Assembly: GCA_013002885.1 (NCBI GenBank)
Contig: JABDLS010000088.1
Span: 1 to 50,118, forward strand
DNA length: 50,118 bases
Direction: 5' to 3'
Source: Gemmatimonadota bacterium
GTDB taxonomy: Bacteria > Gemmatimonadota > Gemmatimonadetes > Longimicrobiales > Gaopeijiaceae
Part shown: positions 7,298 to 10,084 of the stretch, one piece after another
Layout: every line of letters starts with the position of its first letter
How positions within the stretch are numbered: the first letter of the stretch is position 1
The notes under the pieces: model-generated
The model's input: the letters and a program-made list of their open reading frames with translations, nothing else
Database searches by the model: none
What the model was told of the DNA's origin: nothing
Translations under genes and position numbers: made by a program

Positions 7298-9220
7298 CTA
7301 CGCCAGTGCCTTCCTCTCGATCTCGTCCACCACCGTCTCGATGAAGTCCGCCCGACCCATGACGTCCTGCTTCTTGCCCTGGCCGCGCTTCCGGACGGCG
7401 ACCGTACCGCCCTCCGCTTCCCGCTCGCCGACGACCCCCATGTAGGGGATCTTGAGCGTCTCGGCCTCGCGTATGCGGTAACCAAGCGTCTCCCTGGACT
7501 CGAGGGTTGCCCGCACGCCGGCCGCGACGAGATCGTCGACGAGTTCGGCGGCGCTGGCCTCCCAGTCCGCGCCGACGGGTAGGATCCTCACCTGCTCCGG
7601 CGCCAACCAAGTGGGGAACGCGCCGGCGTAGTGCTCGATGAGCCCGCCGATGAAGCGCTCCATGGAGCCGAGGAGCGTGCGGTGGATGACGACAGCTTTG
7701 TGGCGTTCGTTGTCCGAGCCCACGAATTCCAGCCCGAATCGCTCGGGCATCTGGAAGTCGAGCTGGTAGGTGCCCCCCTGCCATTTCCGGCCGATGGCGT
7801 CGACGACGTTGACGTCGATCTTCGGTCCGTAGAAGGCGCCCCCGCCCTCGTCCATGACGTACGGCATCCCGCGACGCTCCAGGACACCCCGCAGCGCCTC
7901 CGTGGCTTCGTCGTAGACGTCGGGATCGCCGATGGCCTTCTCCGGGCGCGTGGACAGGGCCAGCTCGTAGTCGTAGCCGAAGACCTCGAGGAGCATGTCG
8001 CCGTGATCCAGCAGACGATCGTACTCATCGGCGATCTGGTCGGGCCGCACGAAGATGTGGGCGTCGTCCTGCGTGAAGGCGCGCACCCTCAGCATTCCGT
8101 GGAGTGTACCGGACCGCTCGTACCGGTAGCAGGTGCCCAACTCTGCGAATCGCAGGGGAAGATCCCGATAGGACCTCGTCTGCGTCTTGTAGATCATGAA
8201 GTGGTGAGGGCAATTCATGGGCTTGAGGCGAAAACGTGTCCCCTCGTCGTCCATGGCCGGGAACATGTTCTCCTCGAAGACCTCCAGGTGTCCGCTGATG
8301 CGATAGAGCTCCTCGCTGGCCACCTGCGGCGAATACACCAGGTCGTAGTCGTGCTCGAGGAGGGACGCCTTGAGGAACTCCTCCACCGAGTGTCGGATGA
8401 TGCCGCCCCTGGGGTGCCAGAGGACGAAGCCCTGCCCGACCTCCTCCTGGATGGAGTAGAGGTCCAGCTCCTTGCCCAGCACCCGGTGGTCGCGCTTCTT
8501 CGCCTCCTCGAGACGGTCGAGATGCTCCTCCAGGTGGGGCTTCTTGTGAAACGCCGTACCGTAGATGCGCTGAAGCATCTGACGGCTTTCGTCGCCCCTC
8601 CAGTATGCCCCCGCTCCAGACAGCAGCTTGAAATGCTCGAGCCGTCCCGTGCTCGGCACGTGGGGCCCCCGGCAGAGATCGAGGAACGGTCCGTTCTCGT
8701 AGACGGTGATGACCTCGTCATCGTCGAACTCTTCGAGTCGCTCCAGCTTCAGCGGATCGTCGGCGAAGAGCTCACGGGCTTCGTCCTTCGTGACCCGCCG
8801 CCGCTCGAAGGGCTGATCGGCCGCCGCCACCTCTCCCATCTTCTTCTCGAAGGCCTCGAGGTCTTCCGGGGTGAAGGGCTCGTCGACGTCGAAGTCGTAG
8901 TAGAAACCGTCGTCGATGGCAGGACCGAAGCCGATTCCGGCGCCAGGGCGCAGCTCTCGGACGGCCGTCGCCAGGACGTGAGCGGCCGAGTGGCGCAGGA
9001 CGGCGAGAGACTCCTCGTCCTTGGCTGTGAGGATGCGGATGCCGGCATCATCGTCGATGGGATCCATGAGGCCCACCGTCTCTCCGTTCACCACGGCGGC
9101 GAGAGCGGCTTTGGCCAGCCCGGGGCCGATGGCGGCAGCGACGTCGCCCGCCGTAGATCCCTTGGGCATCTCGAGGACGTCGCCGTTGGGGAGCTCGATC
9201 TTGATCTGTTCGTCGGACAT
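7298..9220 (-). CDS. thrS: Threonyl-tRNA synthetase
   Basis: A 640-residue class II synthetase that charges tRNA-Thr. The N-terminal TGS domain (IELPNGDVLEMPKG) is followed by the editing domain with the HSAAH zinc-like motif near residue 75. The catalytic core contains MNCPHHFMIYKT, motif 2 (RYERSGTLHGMLRVRAFTQDD) and motif 3 (GSMERFIGGLIEHYAGAFP). A C-terminal anticodon-binding domain completes it. The ATG at 9220 gives the usual start MSDEQIKIEL; an upstream TTG nine codons earlier is less likely. No strong Shine-Dalgarno is visible. Expression is probably controlled by the Thr-rich leader peptide and terminator at 9282-9417. Confidence 0.97.
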   Translation of the reverse strand: MSDEQIKIELPNGDVLEMPKGSTAGDVAAAIGPGLAKAALAAVVNGETVGLMDPIDDDAGIRILTAKDEESLAVLRHSAAHVLATAVRELRPGAGIGFGPAIDDGFYYDFDVDEPFTPEDLEAFEKKMGEVAAADQPFERRRVTKDEARELFADDPLKLERLEEFDDDEVITVYENGPFLDLCRGPHVPSTGRLEHFKLLSGAGAYWRGDESRQMLQRIYGTAFHKKPHLEEHLDRLEEAKKRDHRVLGKELDLYSIQEEVGQGFVLWHPRGGIIRHSVEEFLKASLLEHDYDLVYSPQVASEELYRISGHLEVFEENMFPAMDDEGTRFRLKPMNCPHHFMIYKTQTRSYRDLPLRFAELGTCYRYERSGTLHGMLRVRAFTQDDAHIFVRPDQIADEYDRLLDHGDMLLEVFGYDYELALSTRPEKAIGDPDVYDEATEALRGVLERRGMPYVMDEGGGAFYGPKIDVNVVDAIGRKWQGGTYQLDFQMPERFGLEFVGSDNERHKAVVIHRTLLGSMERFIGGLIEHYAGAFPTWLAPEQVRILPVGADWEASAAELVDDLVAAGVRATLESRETLGYRIREAETLKIPYMGVVGEREAEGGTVAVRKRGQGKKQDVMGRADFIETVVDEIERKALA

Positions 9221-9281
9221 GTCTGAAATCGCGTGCTGTGGGTCCAAAGGTCAGGCGGCGGGCGGGCACCACAGGGGCATG

Positions 9282-9316
9282 AAAAAAGCGCGGCGCCCGT
9301 GGATCGGGGGCCGCGC
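9282..9316 (-). terminator. Intrinsic terminator of the thrS attenuator
   Basis: On the minus strand GCGCGGC pairs with GCCGCGC (7 bp), with additional inner C/G pairs, and is followed by six T residues. It lies 24 nt after the leader-peptide stop codon and 61 nt before thrS, so it would stop transcription before the gene unless the upstream strand is prevented from forming it. Confidence 0.9.
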
Positions 9317-9320
9317 CGGA

Positions 9321-9380
9321 GTGTCTGGCCGTTCCTGGGCTACCAGACGCGCGCGCCCCCCCGACCGGTAGTCCGGTCGG
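9321..9380 (-). promoter_or_regulatory. Competing hairpins of the thrS attenuator
   Basis: In the transcript an 8-bp hairpin (CCGACCGG, loop ACUA, CCGGUCGG; 9380-9361) overlaps the last two Thr codons. A second, 6-bp hairpin GUCUGG/CCAGAC (9348-9323) spans the stop codon. The G-rich strand after hairpin 1 (about 9364-9349, UCGGGGG then CGCGC) is complementary to the terminator left arm (GCGCG then CCCCCGA), giving 7 + 5 bp around a small internal loop. This is the layout of a ribosome-stalling antiterminator. Pairings were read by eye and not computed. Confidence 0.7.
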
Positions 9381-9417
9381 TGGTGGTGGTCGTCACGGTA
9401 GTGCTCCAGGCACCCAT
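9340..9417 (-). CDS. Threonine-rich leader peptide of thrS (attenuator)
   Basis: A 25-codon frame with ATG at 9417-9415, a GAGG 6 nt upstream, and stop TAG at 9342-9340. Nine of 25 codons are threonine, in the pattern WSTTVTTTTTDRTTG. Several different Thr codons are used (ACC, ACT, ACG). It ends 24 nt before a strong terminator that precedes thrS. In Enterobacteria thrL, a similar Thr/Ile-rich peptide, controls the threonine operon by ribosome stalling. Here the likely role is to let thrS be transcribed when charged tRNA-Thr is scarce. The peptide itself probably has no other function. Confidence 0.88.
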   Translation of the reverse strand: MGAWSTTVTTTTTDRTTGRGGARVW

Positions 9418-9450
9418 ACAGAGCCTCGGTGGTTCGATGGAAGCTGGCCA

Positions 9451-9479
9451 ACGATGGCGGGAAGGCCTGGCAGGGTCAA
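9451..9479 (-). promoter_or_regulatory. Candidate promoter for the thrS leader
   Basis: On the minus strand TTGACC (9479-9474) overlaps the last codons of the upstream gene and is followed by 17 bp and CATCGT (9456-9451). Transcription would start about 25-30 nt before the leader-peptide ATG, the short distance expected for an attenuator. Confidence 0.45.
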
Positions 9480-10084
9480 GCGTGCCTCTCACCAGGCTCA
9501 GGTGACGAAGGTGGACTGATCTCCTGTTCGGGGCCGTCGCTCCCGGCCAGGGCGAAGAAGCGGTCGCTGAAGGCTCGCAGCTCGCTCGAGGCACGGAACG
9601 CCGAGTGGGGGACGGGCAGAAACGCGTCGGAGCCGAAGTAGATCATGAACGAGCCGGGACCGTCCACCACTTTCTCGACGGCGTGCCAACGCGTGAGGCG
9701 TTGGTAGGCGTGGGTTTCGTCCATGATTCCTTCGTCGAGGAGGCTCACCCGATGGGTGCCGAACATCCCGTTGGTGATGCCGCCACGGGCGATGTCCGCG
9801 TACTGCTTCCGTTGTGCCCGTTCGAACAGCCGGGGCAGGAGCACCACCCCGATCGATCCTCCGAGGAGCCAAGCCAGCGTGAACATCGGGTATCCCGCCA
9901 GAAGGGCGAGGAGGCCCAAGATGACCGTGATGCCGCCGAGGGCGAGTTGGCCGTGGATCGTGGCCCTCTTCACCACCGGCGACTGTCGGTTGTGCTCAAC
10001 GGCGAGGTCGACCCACTCCTCGGGTGTCAGATCGAACTCGACGGGGACCGAATCGGCCTCGGTCACGCGGGACGCAGCGGACAC
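9476..10084 (-). CDS. YcxB-like membrane protein
   Basis: A 202-residue protein. It has a soluble N-terminal segment (VEFDLTPEEWVDLAVEHNRQS), a hydrophobic pair of helices around residues 48-82 (GGITVILGLLALLAGYPMFTLAWLLGG), and a C-terminal soluble domain with RLTRWHAVEKVVDGPGSFMIYFG and FLPVPHSAF. This arrangement resembles the YcxB-like family, whose function is unknown. The frame opens with GTG at 10084 but no strong Shine-Dalgarno was found, so the start is uncertain. It is followed closely by the thrS promoter. Family assignment rests on pattern recognition only. Confidence 0.75.
   Translation of the reverse strand: MSAASRVTEADSVPVEFDLTPEEWVDLAVEHNRQSPVVKRATIHGQLALGGITVILGLLALLAGYPMFTLAWLLGGSIGVVLLPRLFERAQRKQYADIARGGITNGMFGTHRVSLLDEGIMDETHAYQRLTRWHAVEKVVDGPGSFMIYFGSDAFLPVPHSAFRASSELRAFSDRFFALAGSDGPEQEISPPSSPEPGERHA

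Follow-up and report, generated by a model that had tools for sequence, protein, structure and literature searches.

The window (the whole stretch of DNA that was analysed, 50,118 nucleotides) is part of a 4.0-Mb draft genome, and on its minus strand it carries thrS, with an ATG at 9220 and identified by TIGR00418 (657 bits, cut-off 384). The gene infC, identified by a TIGR00168 match, lies on the same strand and the minus-strand frames beside these two genes were read by eye as rpmI, rplT, pheS and pheT. The parts of a leader, all of them on the minus strand, were found upstream of thrS (Table 1). A short ORF runs from an ATG, preceded by the Shine-Dalgarno (SD)-like start signal GAGG, to a TAG stop codon (9342-9340) and nine of its 25 codons are Thr codons (ACN), which bears out the 25-codon frame with nine Thr codons and good start signals described in an earlier sequence-only reading. 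An intrinsic terminator (9317-9282) separates this ORF from thrS and ends in six T; the earlier reading had the hairpin and the six T residues right, and the terminator starts 22 nt past the stop codon instead of the 24 nt given there. The 8-bp hairpin that it proposed was also found, with 9380-9373 pairing to 9368-9361. No pheM-like Phe leader was seen by eye before pheS in the window (5800-5560).

A density of nine Thr in 12 codons was reached in none of 2000 dinucleotide shuffles of 9475-9221, the best of which had six, and across the whole window one other short ORF had at least six Thr in 12 codons. Upstream of the ORF there is a promoter-like TTGACC-N17-CATCGT (9479-9451), which was absent from the sequence-only reading. 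A standard sigma-70 scan found no promoter within 9000-9800, and the same scan gave one terminator-like site, at 9298-9286 inside the leader terminator, for which shuffles gave 0.3.

Table 1. Features of the thrS leader region in the window.
Feature	Position	Strand	Remarks
-35-like TTGACC, putative leader promoter	9474-9479	minus	Pattern found in relatives
-10-like CATCGT	9451-9456	minus	Putative; transcript start probably near 9443
Thr-rich leader peptide ORF	9417-9340	minus	MGAWSTTVTTTTTDRTTGRGGARVW, then stop; similar ORFs in relatives
Five-Thr codon run (of the nine Thr in the ORF)	9379-9393	minus	
Segment 1, hairpin 5' arm (8 bp)	9373-9380	minus	Covariation
Hairpin 3' arm (8 bp)	9361-9368	minus	Covariation
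Antiterminator strand (segment 2 core), GGGGGCGCGC	9351-9360	minus	Pairs with 9307-9316
Terminator left arm (segment 3)	9305-9317	minus	Conserved in relatives, covariation
Terminator right arm (segment 4) and six-T tail	9282-9299	minus	Conserved in relatives, covariation
thrS, threonine--tRNA ligase	7301-9220, stop codon 7298-7300	minus	TIGR00418

Sequences upstream of thrS were compared across 202 genomes, 122 in the order of the window and 80 outside it. For the order, 154 genomes were searched, 143 had a ThrS match and 122 were used, 120 of them with at least 250 nt upstream; the outside set was made up of 80 class-level genomes from a phylum draw of 200, all 80 with at least 250 nt upstream. 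ORFs with at least six Thr in 12 codons were present in 20 of the 120 order regions on the sense strand and in none on the reverse strand, with 0.2 expected from shuffles, and in 0 of the 80 regions outside the order, where two reached five, both without a terminator. At a threshold of at least five Thr in 12 codons an ORF was found in 33 of the 202 genomes. A strong terminator about 12-30 nt past the stop codon, which was the selection criterion for the members kept, was found in 22 of the 202 genomes, all 22 belonging to the order and spanning three of its families (17, 2 and 3 members). The remaining 11 of the 33 were dropped because the terminator was weak or missing; several of these ORFs look by eye like frames inside other genes, and one dropped row (G038) may be a real leader. 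Comparison of upstream regions, the check proposed in the sequence-only reading, thus found Thr codons and terminator kept together in 22 genomes of three families. Relatives lacking the Thr codons or the terminator had been named there as an argument against an attenuator: these 22 genomes keep both, and most of the sampled order genomes are without the leader.

In the 22 members the codons of the Thr run are ACC (84), ACG (59), ACT (26) and ACA (2), the third positions varying between C, G and T. An SD-like motif and start were recognised by a simple pattern in 14 of the 22, and the terminator hairpins range from -14.5 to -38.1 kcal/mol, each with a T-run. In 20 of the 22 members the promoter pattern TTGA[CA]-N17-19-[CT]ANNNT, chosen after it had been seen in relatives, occurred no more than 140 nt before the Thr run, compared to 0.14 expected from shuffles and 0 on the other strand.

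The distribution is patchy, with no Thr-run ORF plus terminator in 98 of the 120 usable order regions. The leader is present in 8 of the 13 genomes of the window's genus that have an upstream region; it is absent from G003 and G007 of this genus and from close relatives such as G019 and four g55 genomes with 79-81% identical ThrS, and no Thr-run ORF was found in G148, an order genome with ThrS. In a small-genome subclade (L111 in G002, L114 in G004 and L112 in G012) the hairpin and terminator are kept and most Thr codons are lost, and the leader there appears to be decaying or re-purposed. Two more weak members, G107 and G147, came from a covariance model. Without the terminator test, runs of at least six in 12 codons were common in the 120 order regions for Gly (25), Arg (15) and Ala (8), as can be attributed to GC-rich DNA. 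When a terminator was required (at least five of 12), the thrS regions had Thr runs in 21 of 120, Gly in 9, Arg in 7, Ala in 1 and Ser in 1, four of the seven Arg runs being within Thr members; pooled Leu/Ile/Val and Asp/Glu runs with a terminator numbered 13 and 7 of 120.

Covariation was examined in an alignment (A2) of 15 of the 17 leaders from the window's family, with L029 and L167 left out. The in-frame hairpin was paired in 90% of cells and its covariation was 0.445 compared to 0.165 in shuffled alignments, with 0 of 500 shuffles as high, these shuffles ignoring the relatedness of the aligned leaders. Hairpin and terminator together were paired in 93.6% of cells as against 39-51% when slid, and the terminator arms covary across the family. 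The antiterminator strand 9360-9351 (strand 2) forms nine of ten pairs with 9316-9307 in the conserved register, and duplex folding gives 9 + 5 pairs; the complementarity to the terminator left arm noticed in the sequence-only reading was therefore retained, with these counts replacing its 7 + 5 bp. This pairing held in 85.6% of cells in the window's family compared to 42-59% when slid, with L172 as low as four of ten pairs in the conserved register. No antiterminator covariation was found inside the window's family, where 360 of 500 shuffles were as good. Across all 22 members, strand 2 paired with its own terminator at a mean of -26.2 kcal/mol, compared to -23.9 for random re-pairing and -21.1 for between-family swaps, and none of 5000 permutations was as good. 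The covariation check suggested earlier thus came out in favour of the hairpin, the terminator and the 22-member matching, and not of the antiterminator inside the window's family.

In the sequence-only reading the antiterminator was a strand of the hairpin itself. The conserved antiterminator core of the window's family begins directly 3' of the 8-bp hairpin, whose arms do not overlap it, so that hairpin and antiterminator can coexist; in the family f3, by eye, hairpin and antiterminator seem to share one arm in the textbook wiring, as that reading had it. With the usual ribosome footprint, a ribosome at the stop codon would cover the antiterminator strand. Given that the antiterminator core lies outside the hairpin, the switch in the window's family is likelier to work through ribosome occlusion of strand 2 at the stop codon than through hairpin competition alone.

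Alternative folds were computed with one choice of ribosome-sized mask, and when only the left terminator arm had been made a ribosome placed in the Thr run gave a mean predicted antiterminator probability of 0.79, compared to 0.13 for one at the stop codon and 0.57 for RNA free of ribosomes. In the finished RNA the mean terminator probability was 0.60, 0.91 and 0.79 for the same three states. For the window, the antiterminator probability before the right arm was made was 0.84 with a stalled ribosome, 0.15 with a ribosome at the stop codon and 0.84 with none, and the terminator reached 0.49 in the finished RNA with a stalled ribosome. Exceptions were G058, where a ribosome at the stop codon left the antiterminator probability at 0.68, and G125 (0.57 versus 0.42). 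The models thus predict that a stalled and a finished ribosome differ clearly in most members and that termination would not be strong in the no-ribosome state. The folds called for by the sequence-only reading separate the stalled from the stop state, but at equilibrium the finished terminator often wins despite a stalled ribosome, and the switch would therefore have to act by timing.

We consider it very probable, judging from the sequence, that the leader is a ribosome-mediated transcription attenuator that tunes thrS to the supply of charged tRNA-Thr. The attenuator logic of thrL, pheM and hisL that had been proposed for this locus is supported by the conservation, by the third-position variation and by the hairpin and terminator covariation. 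Transcription would start near 9443, and a ribosome would follow RNA polymerase and translate the 25-codon leader; the 8-bp hairpin probably pauses the polymerase and lets the ribosome catch up. When Thr-tRNA is ample the ribosome would reach the stop codon at 9342-9340 and cover 9360-9351, the terminator 9317-9282 would form and transcription would end before thrS. With Thr-tRNA in short supply, the ribosome would stall in the Thr run (9393-9379) and leave 9360-9351 free to pair with the left arm at 9316-9307, and the polymerase would continue into thrS. From these signals we infer where the transcript starts, that the leader is translated, that ribosomes stall and the polymerase pauses, and that premature ends and a threonine response occur.

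A covariance model of the thrS leader (R1) was used to search the 154 genomes. At E < 1e-9 it matched upstream of thrS only, once each in 18 of the 154 genomes; 15 of these 18 matches were the model's own sequences and the new ones were in G004, G011 and G125. At E up to 1e-3 there were 16 matches away from thrS and 13 of these had an amino-acid-run peptide, whereas those in G152, G043 and G052 (contig C189) had no amino-acid-run leader. Eight of the 13 were His-rich leaders adjoining hisG, including one in the window's own genome (L324, G000:C52:14245-14360), where the His-rich peptide MTNPIHHRHHHHHAAHSGGEGLVRA and a terminator precede hisG (TIGR00070). Two were Phe/Tyr-rich leaders before a DAHP synthase gene (G039 and, by eye, G106), one was a Phe-rich leader with the peptide MRNGTYFIDLDFFFTARTMGRGRRCGRR and a terminator before prephenate dehydratase (L416, G027:C48:11339-11455), and two were Thr-rich leaders with a terminator before aspartokinase (L307 in G048:C19 and, by eye, L415 in G111:C35). 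Outside the order, where three of the 12 genomes listed with model matches were examined (G208, G178 and G307), a Thr leader and terminator were found before aspartokinase in G208 (L342, contig C53) and no leader at the model match in G178 and G307.

These runs were also counted at each gene. His leaders with at least four of 12 codons were present at 19 of 29 among the best 30 hisG loci of the 69 genomes with a match, one locus having been left out with too little upstream sequence, and aromatic leaders at the same threshold at 19 of the 30 best DAHP synthase loci. With at least five of 12 codons and a terminator, Thr runs were found at 21 of 120 thrS, 1 of 29 hisG and 0 of 30 DAHP synthase loci, His runs at 1 of 120, 19 of 29 and 0 of 30, and aromatic runs at 0 of 120, 0 of 29 and 13 of 30, respectively. 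On the reverse strands of these three sets of loci no Thr, His or aromatic run with a terminator was found, and pooled Leu/Ile/Val runs had no gene preference (thrS 13, hisG 5, DAHP synthase 6).

A second model (R2, from alignment A4) served as a finder only, given that A4 includes two wrong-strand fragments of members. Its weak matches in G000:C67, G005:C89, G005:C105, G013:C51, G007:C290 and others were by eye ordinary terminators or coding DNA. At the locus L349 (G052:C189) a terminator is preceded by two short ORFs that resemble each other, MKTTTSLQAGKGLGADPNG and MNTTTAIHAGRGFGIDPNG, which have the look of a small peptide family and are perhaps precursor peptides. At E up to 1e-40, hisG was without a match in three nearly complete genomes of the window's genus, G001, G006 and G013 (97, 100 and 94%), and for this reason several members of the genus may be histidine auxotrophs while retaining the thrS leader.

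A chance Thr-rich frame, or a simple ACC-type triplet repeat, before the ordinary terminator of the upstream gene would also place such parts together. The Thr run is of low complexity, GC-rich DNA is rich in short frames, Gly and Arg runs are likewise common upstream of thrS in the order, and among the 33 genomes of the 202 with at least five Thr in 12 codons there are 11 without a fitting terminator and several ORFs that by eye lie inside coding frames. However, 22 genomes share the same peptide design and spacing, the other strand and the shuffles are near zero, the promoter pattern lies together with the ORF and the terminator, and Thr, His and aromatic runs each occur at their own gene. 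Given that the Thr codons mix ACC, ACG, ACT and ACA the run is not a pure repeat, and a chance origin, refuted by the conservation, retains next to no probability.

Control of the terminator without translation, by a T-box or a different riboswitch that binds tRNA or a metabolite, would fit with the T-boxes that control thrS in Firmicutes. Rfam gave no family at the gathering threshold in the whole window or in 20 related loci, though, and a permissive search of 9200-9500 (E up to 5) gave three unrelated weak matches with no T-box among them. RF00506, which we take to be the Rfam threonine operon leader, likewise had no match at the gathering threshold in the window, nor at E up to 5 in 9200-9500. 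The leader would also be only about 160 nt from the probable start, half of this length being ORF, and we regard a riboswitch of this kind as extremely improbable. In a further alternative, control would be mainly by translation coupling or by ThrRS binding, as for thrS of E. coli, and the Thr run would set leader translation only. The gene order thrS-infC-rpmI-rplT-pheST is as in E. coli. ThrRS of E. coli regulates its own expression, which is also named in the available text of PMC2965389. Against such control, a strong intrinsic terminator parts the ORF from thrS in every member kept (the condition on which members were chosen) and strand 2 matches that terminator, and we think such control very unlikely. 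Ribosome-mediated attenuation is thus the reading that we prefer for the thrS leader.

Taking all leaders together, one could tentatively picture a leader-peptide regulon of the order whose RNAs share one chassis, made up of a codon run, a CCGG-type hairpin, a G-rich strand and a GCGGCCC terminator. The regulatory codons alone would have been swapped, with Thr codons at thrS and aspartokinase, His codons at hisG, and Phe/Tyr codons at DAHP synthase and prephenate dehydratase. A terminating ribosome would itself mask the antiterminator in the window's family, and a leader that is not translated would allow read-through, the opposite of trpL. We hold this joint picture to be possible and rather doubtful.

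The best known controls of thrS are T-boxes and autorepression by ThrRS. The T-box that controls thrS in Firmicutes binds tRNA directly; target gene and signal (charged versus uncharged tRNA-Thr) are the same as proposed here, whereas the sensor here would be the translating ribosome. Enterobacterial thrL, hisL, the pheA leader and trpL are the classical biosynthetic attenuators and have the same order of cognate codon run, hairpin, antiterminator and terminator. In contrast to these, the target here is a synthetase, and the conserved antiterminator core of the window's family is located 3' of hairpin 1:2, with no arm in common.

Ribosome-mediated attenuation of amino-acid operons and synthetases is already known. 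In the available text of the respective papers, it is described for trpS and leuS in Streptomyces, with pheST named (PMC1262725), and an ORF, uORFC-8-2, is placed before cysS of Rhodobacterales (PMC8632094). The attenuators of pheST (gamma-proteobacteria), trpS/leuS and cysS likewise have a cognate-codon leader peptide acting on an aminoacyl-tRNA synthetase gene; according to these accessible accounts they differ from the present leader in amino acid and phylum, and the comparison, made through Rfam only, gave no match. His leaders are described in bacilli by authors to whose knowledge, as given in the text available, earlier cases were limited to Proteobacteria and Actinobacteria (PMC2965389). 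The closest likeness is thrL of Streptomyces lividans TK24, which the accessible part of PMC8079986 annotates directly before thrS with two Thr in 18 residues, that is, a Thr leader peptide directly before the threonyl-tRNA synthetase gene. As far as that text goes, S. lividans thrL has a leaderless start, one hairpin and no U-run, with termination unclear according to its authors, whereas the leader described here has nine Thr, an SD-like start, a strong terminator, a matched antiterminator and members in three families. A Thr leader before thrS had thus been annotated earlier (PMC8079986, as available). The suggestion in the sequence-only reading that a Thr-leader attenuator on thrS had not been described in this type of bacterium stands for the phylum, as no report of leader-peptide attenuators in Gemmatimonadota was found in the open-access literature, which is not proof of absence. 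No S. lividans-like thrL was found in six actinobacterial loci (L103 and L106-L110), where one short frame had adjacent Thr.

In the gap between thrS and infC (7215-6944, minus strand), TTGACC-N17-CATCTT at 7215-7187 resembles a promoter, and the gap also has a leader about 160 nt long and the terminator GGCCCGAGATTCGTCTCGGGC-TTTTT. Of the 44 distinct thrS-infC intervals listed, 34 had a hairpin resembling a terminator before infC, and the element is possibly a second attenuator, for infC-rpmI-rplT. In the window infC seems to start at an ATC (6943-6941, minus strand) after a strong SD, and by eye ATC is at this position in most relatives examined. Rare start codons are known for infC.

The thrS leader would extend ribosome-stalling attenuation, with comparative evidence, to Gemmatimonadota and to thrS. 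The His, aromatic and aspartate-family leaders would let regulation be read from the sequence in bacteria that are mostly uncultured, and the patchy occurrence of the thrS leader among near relatives would offer a natural series for the rise and decay of an attenuator.
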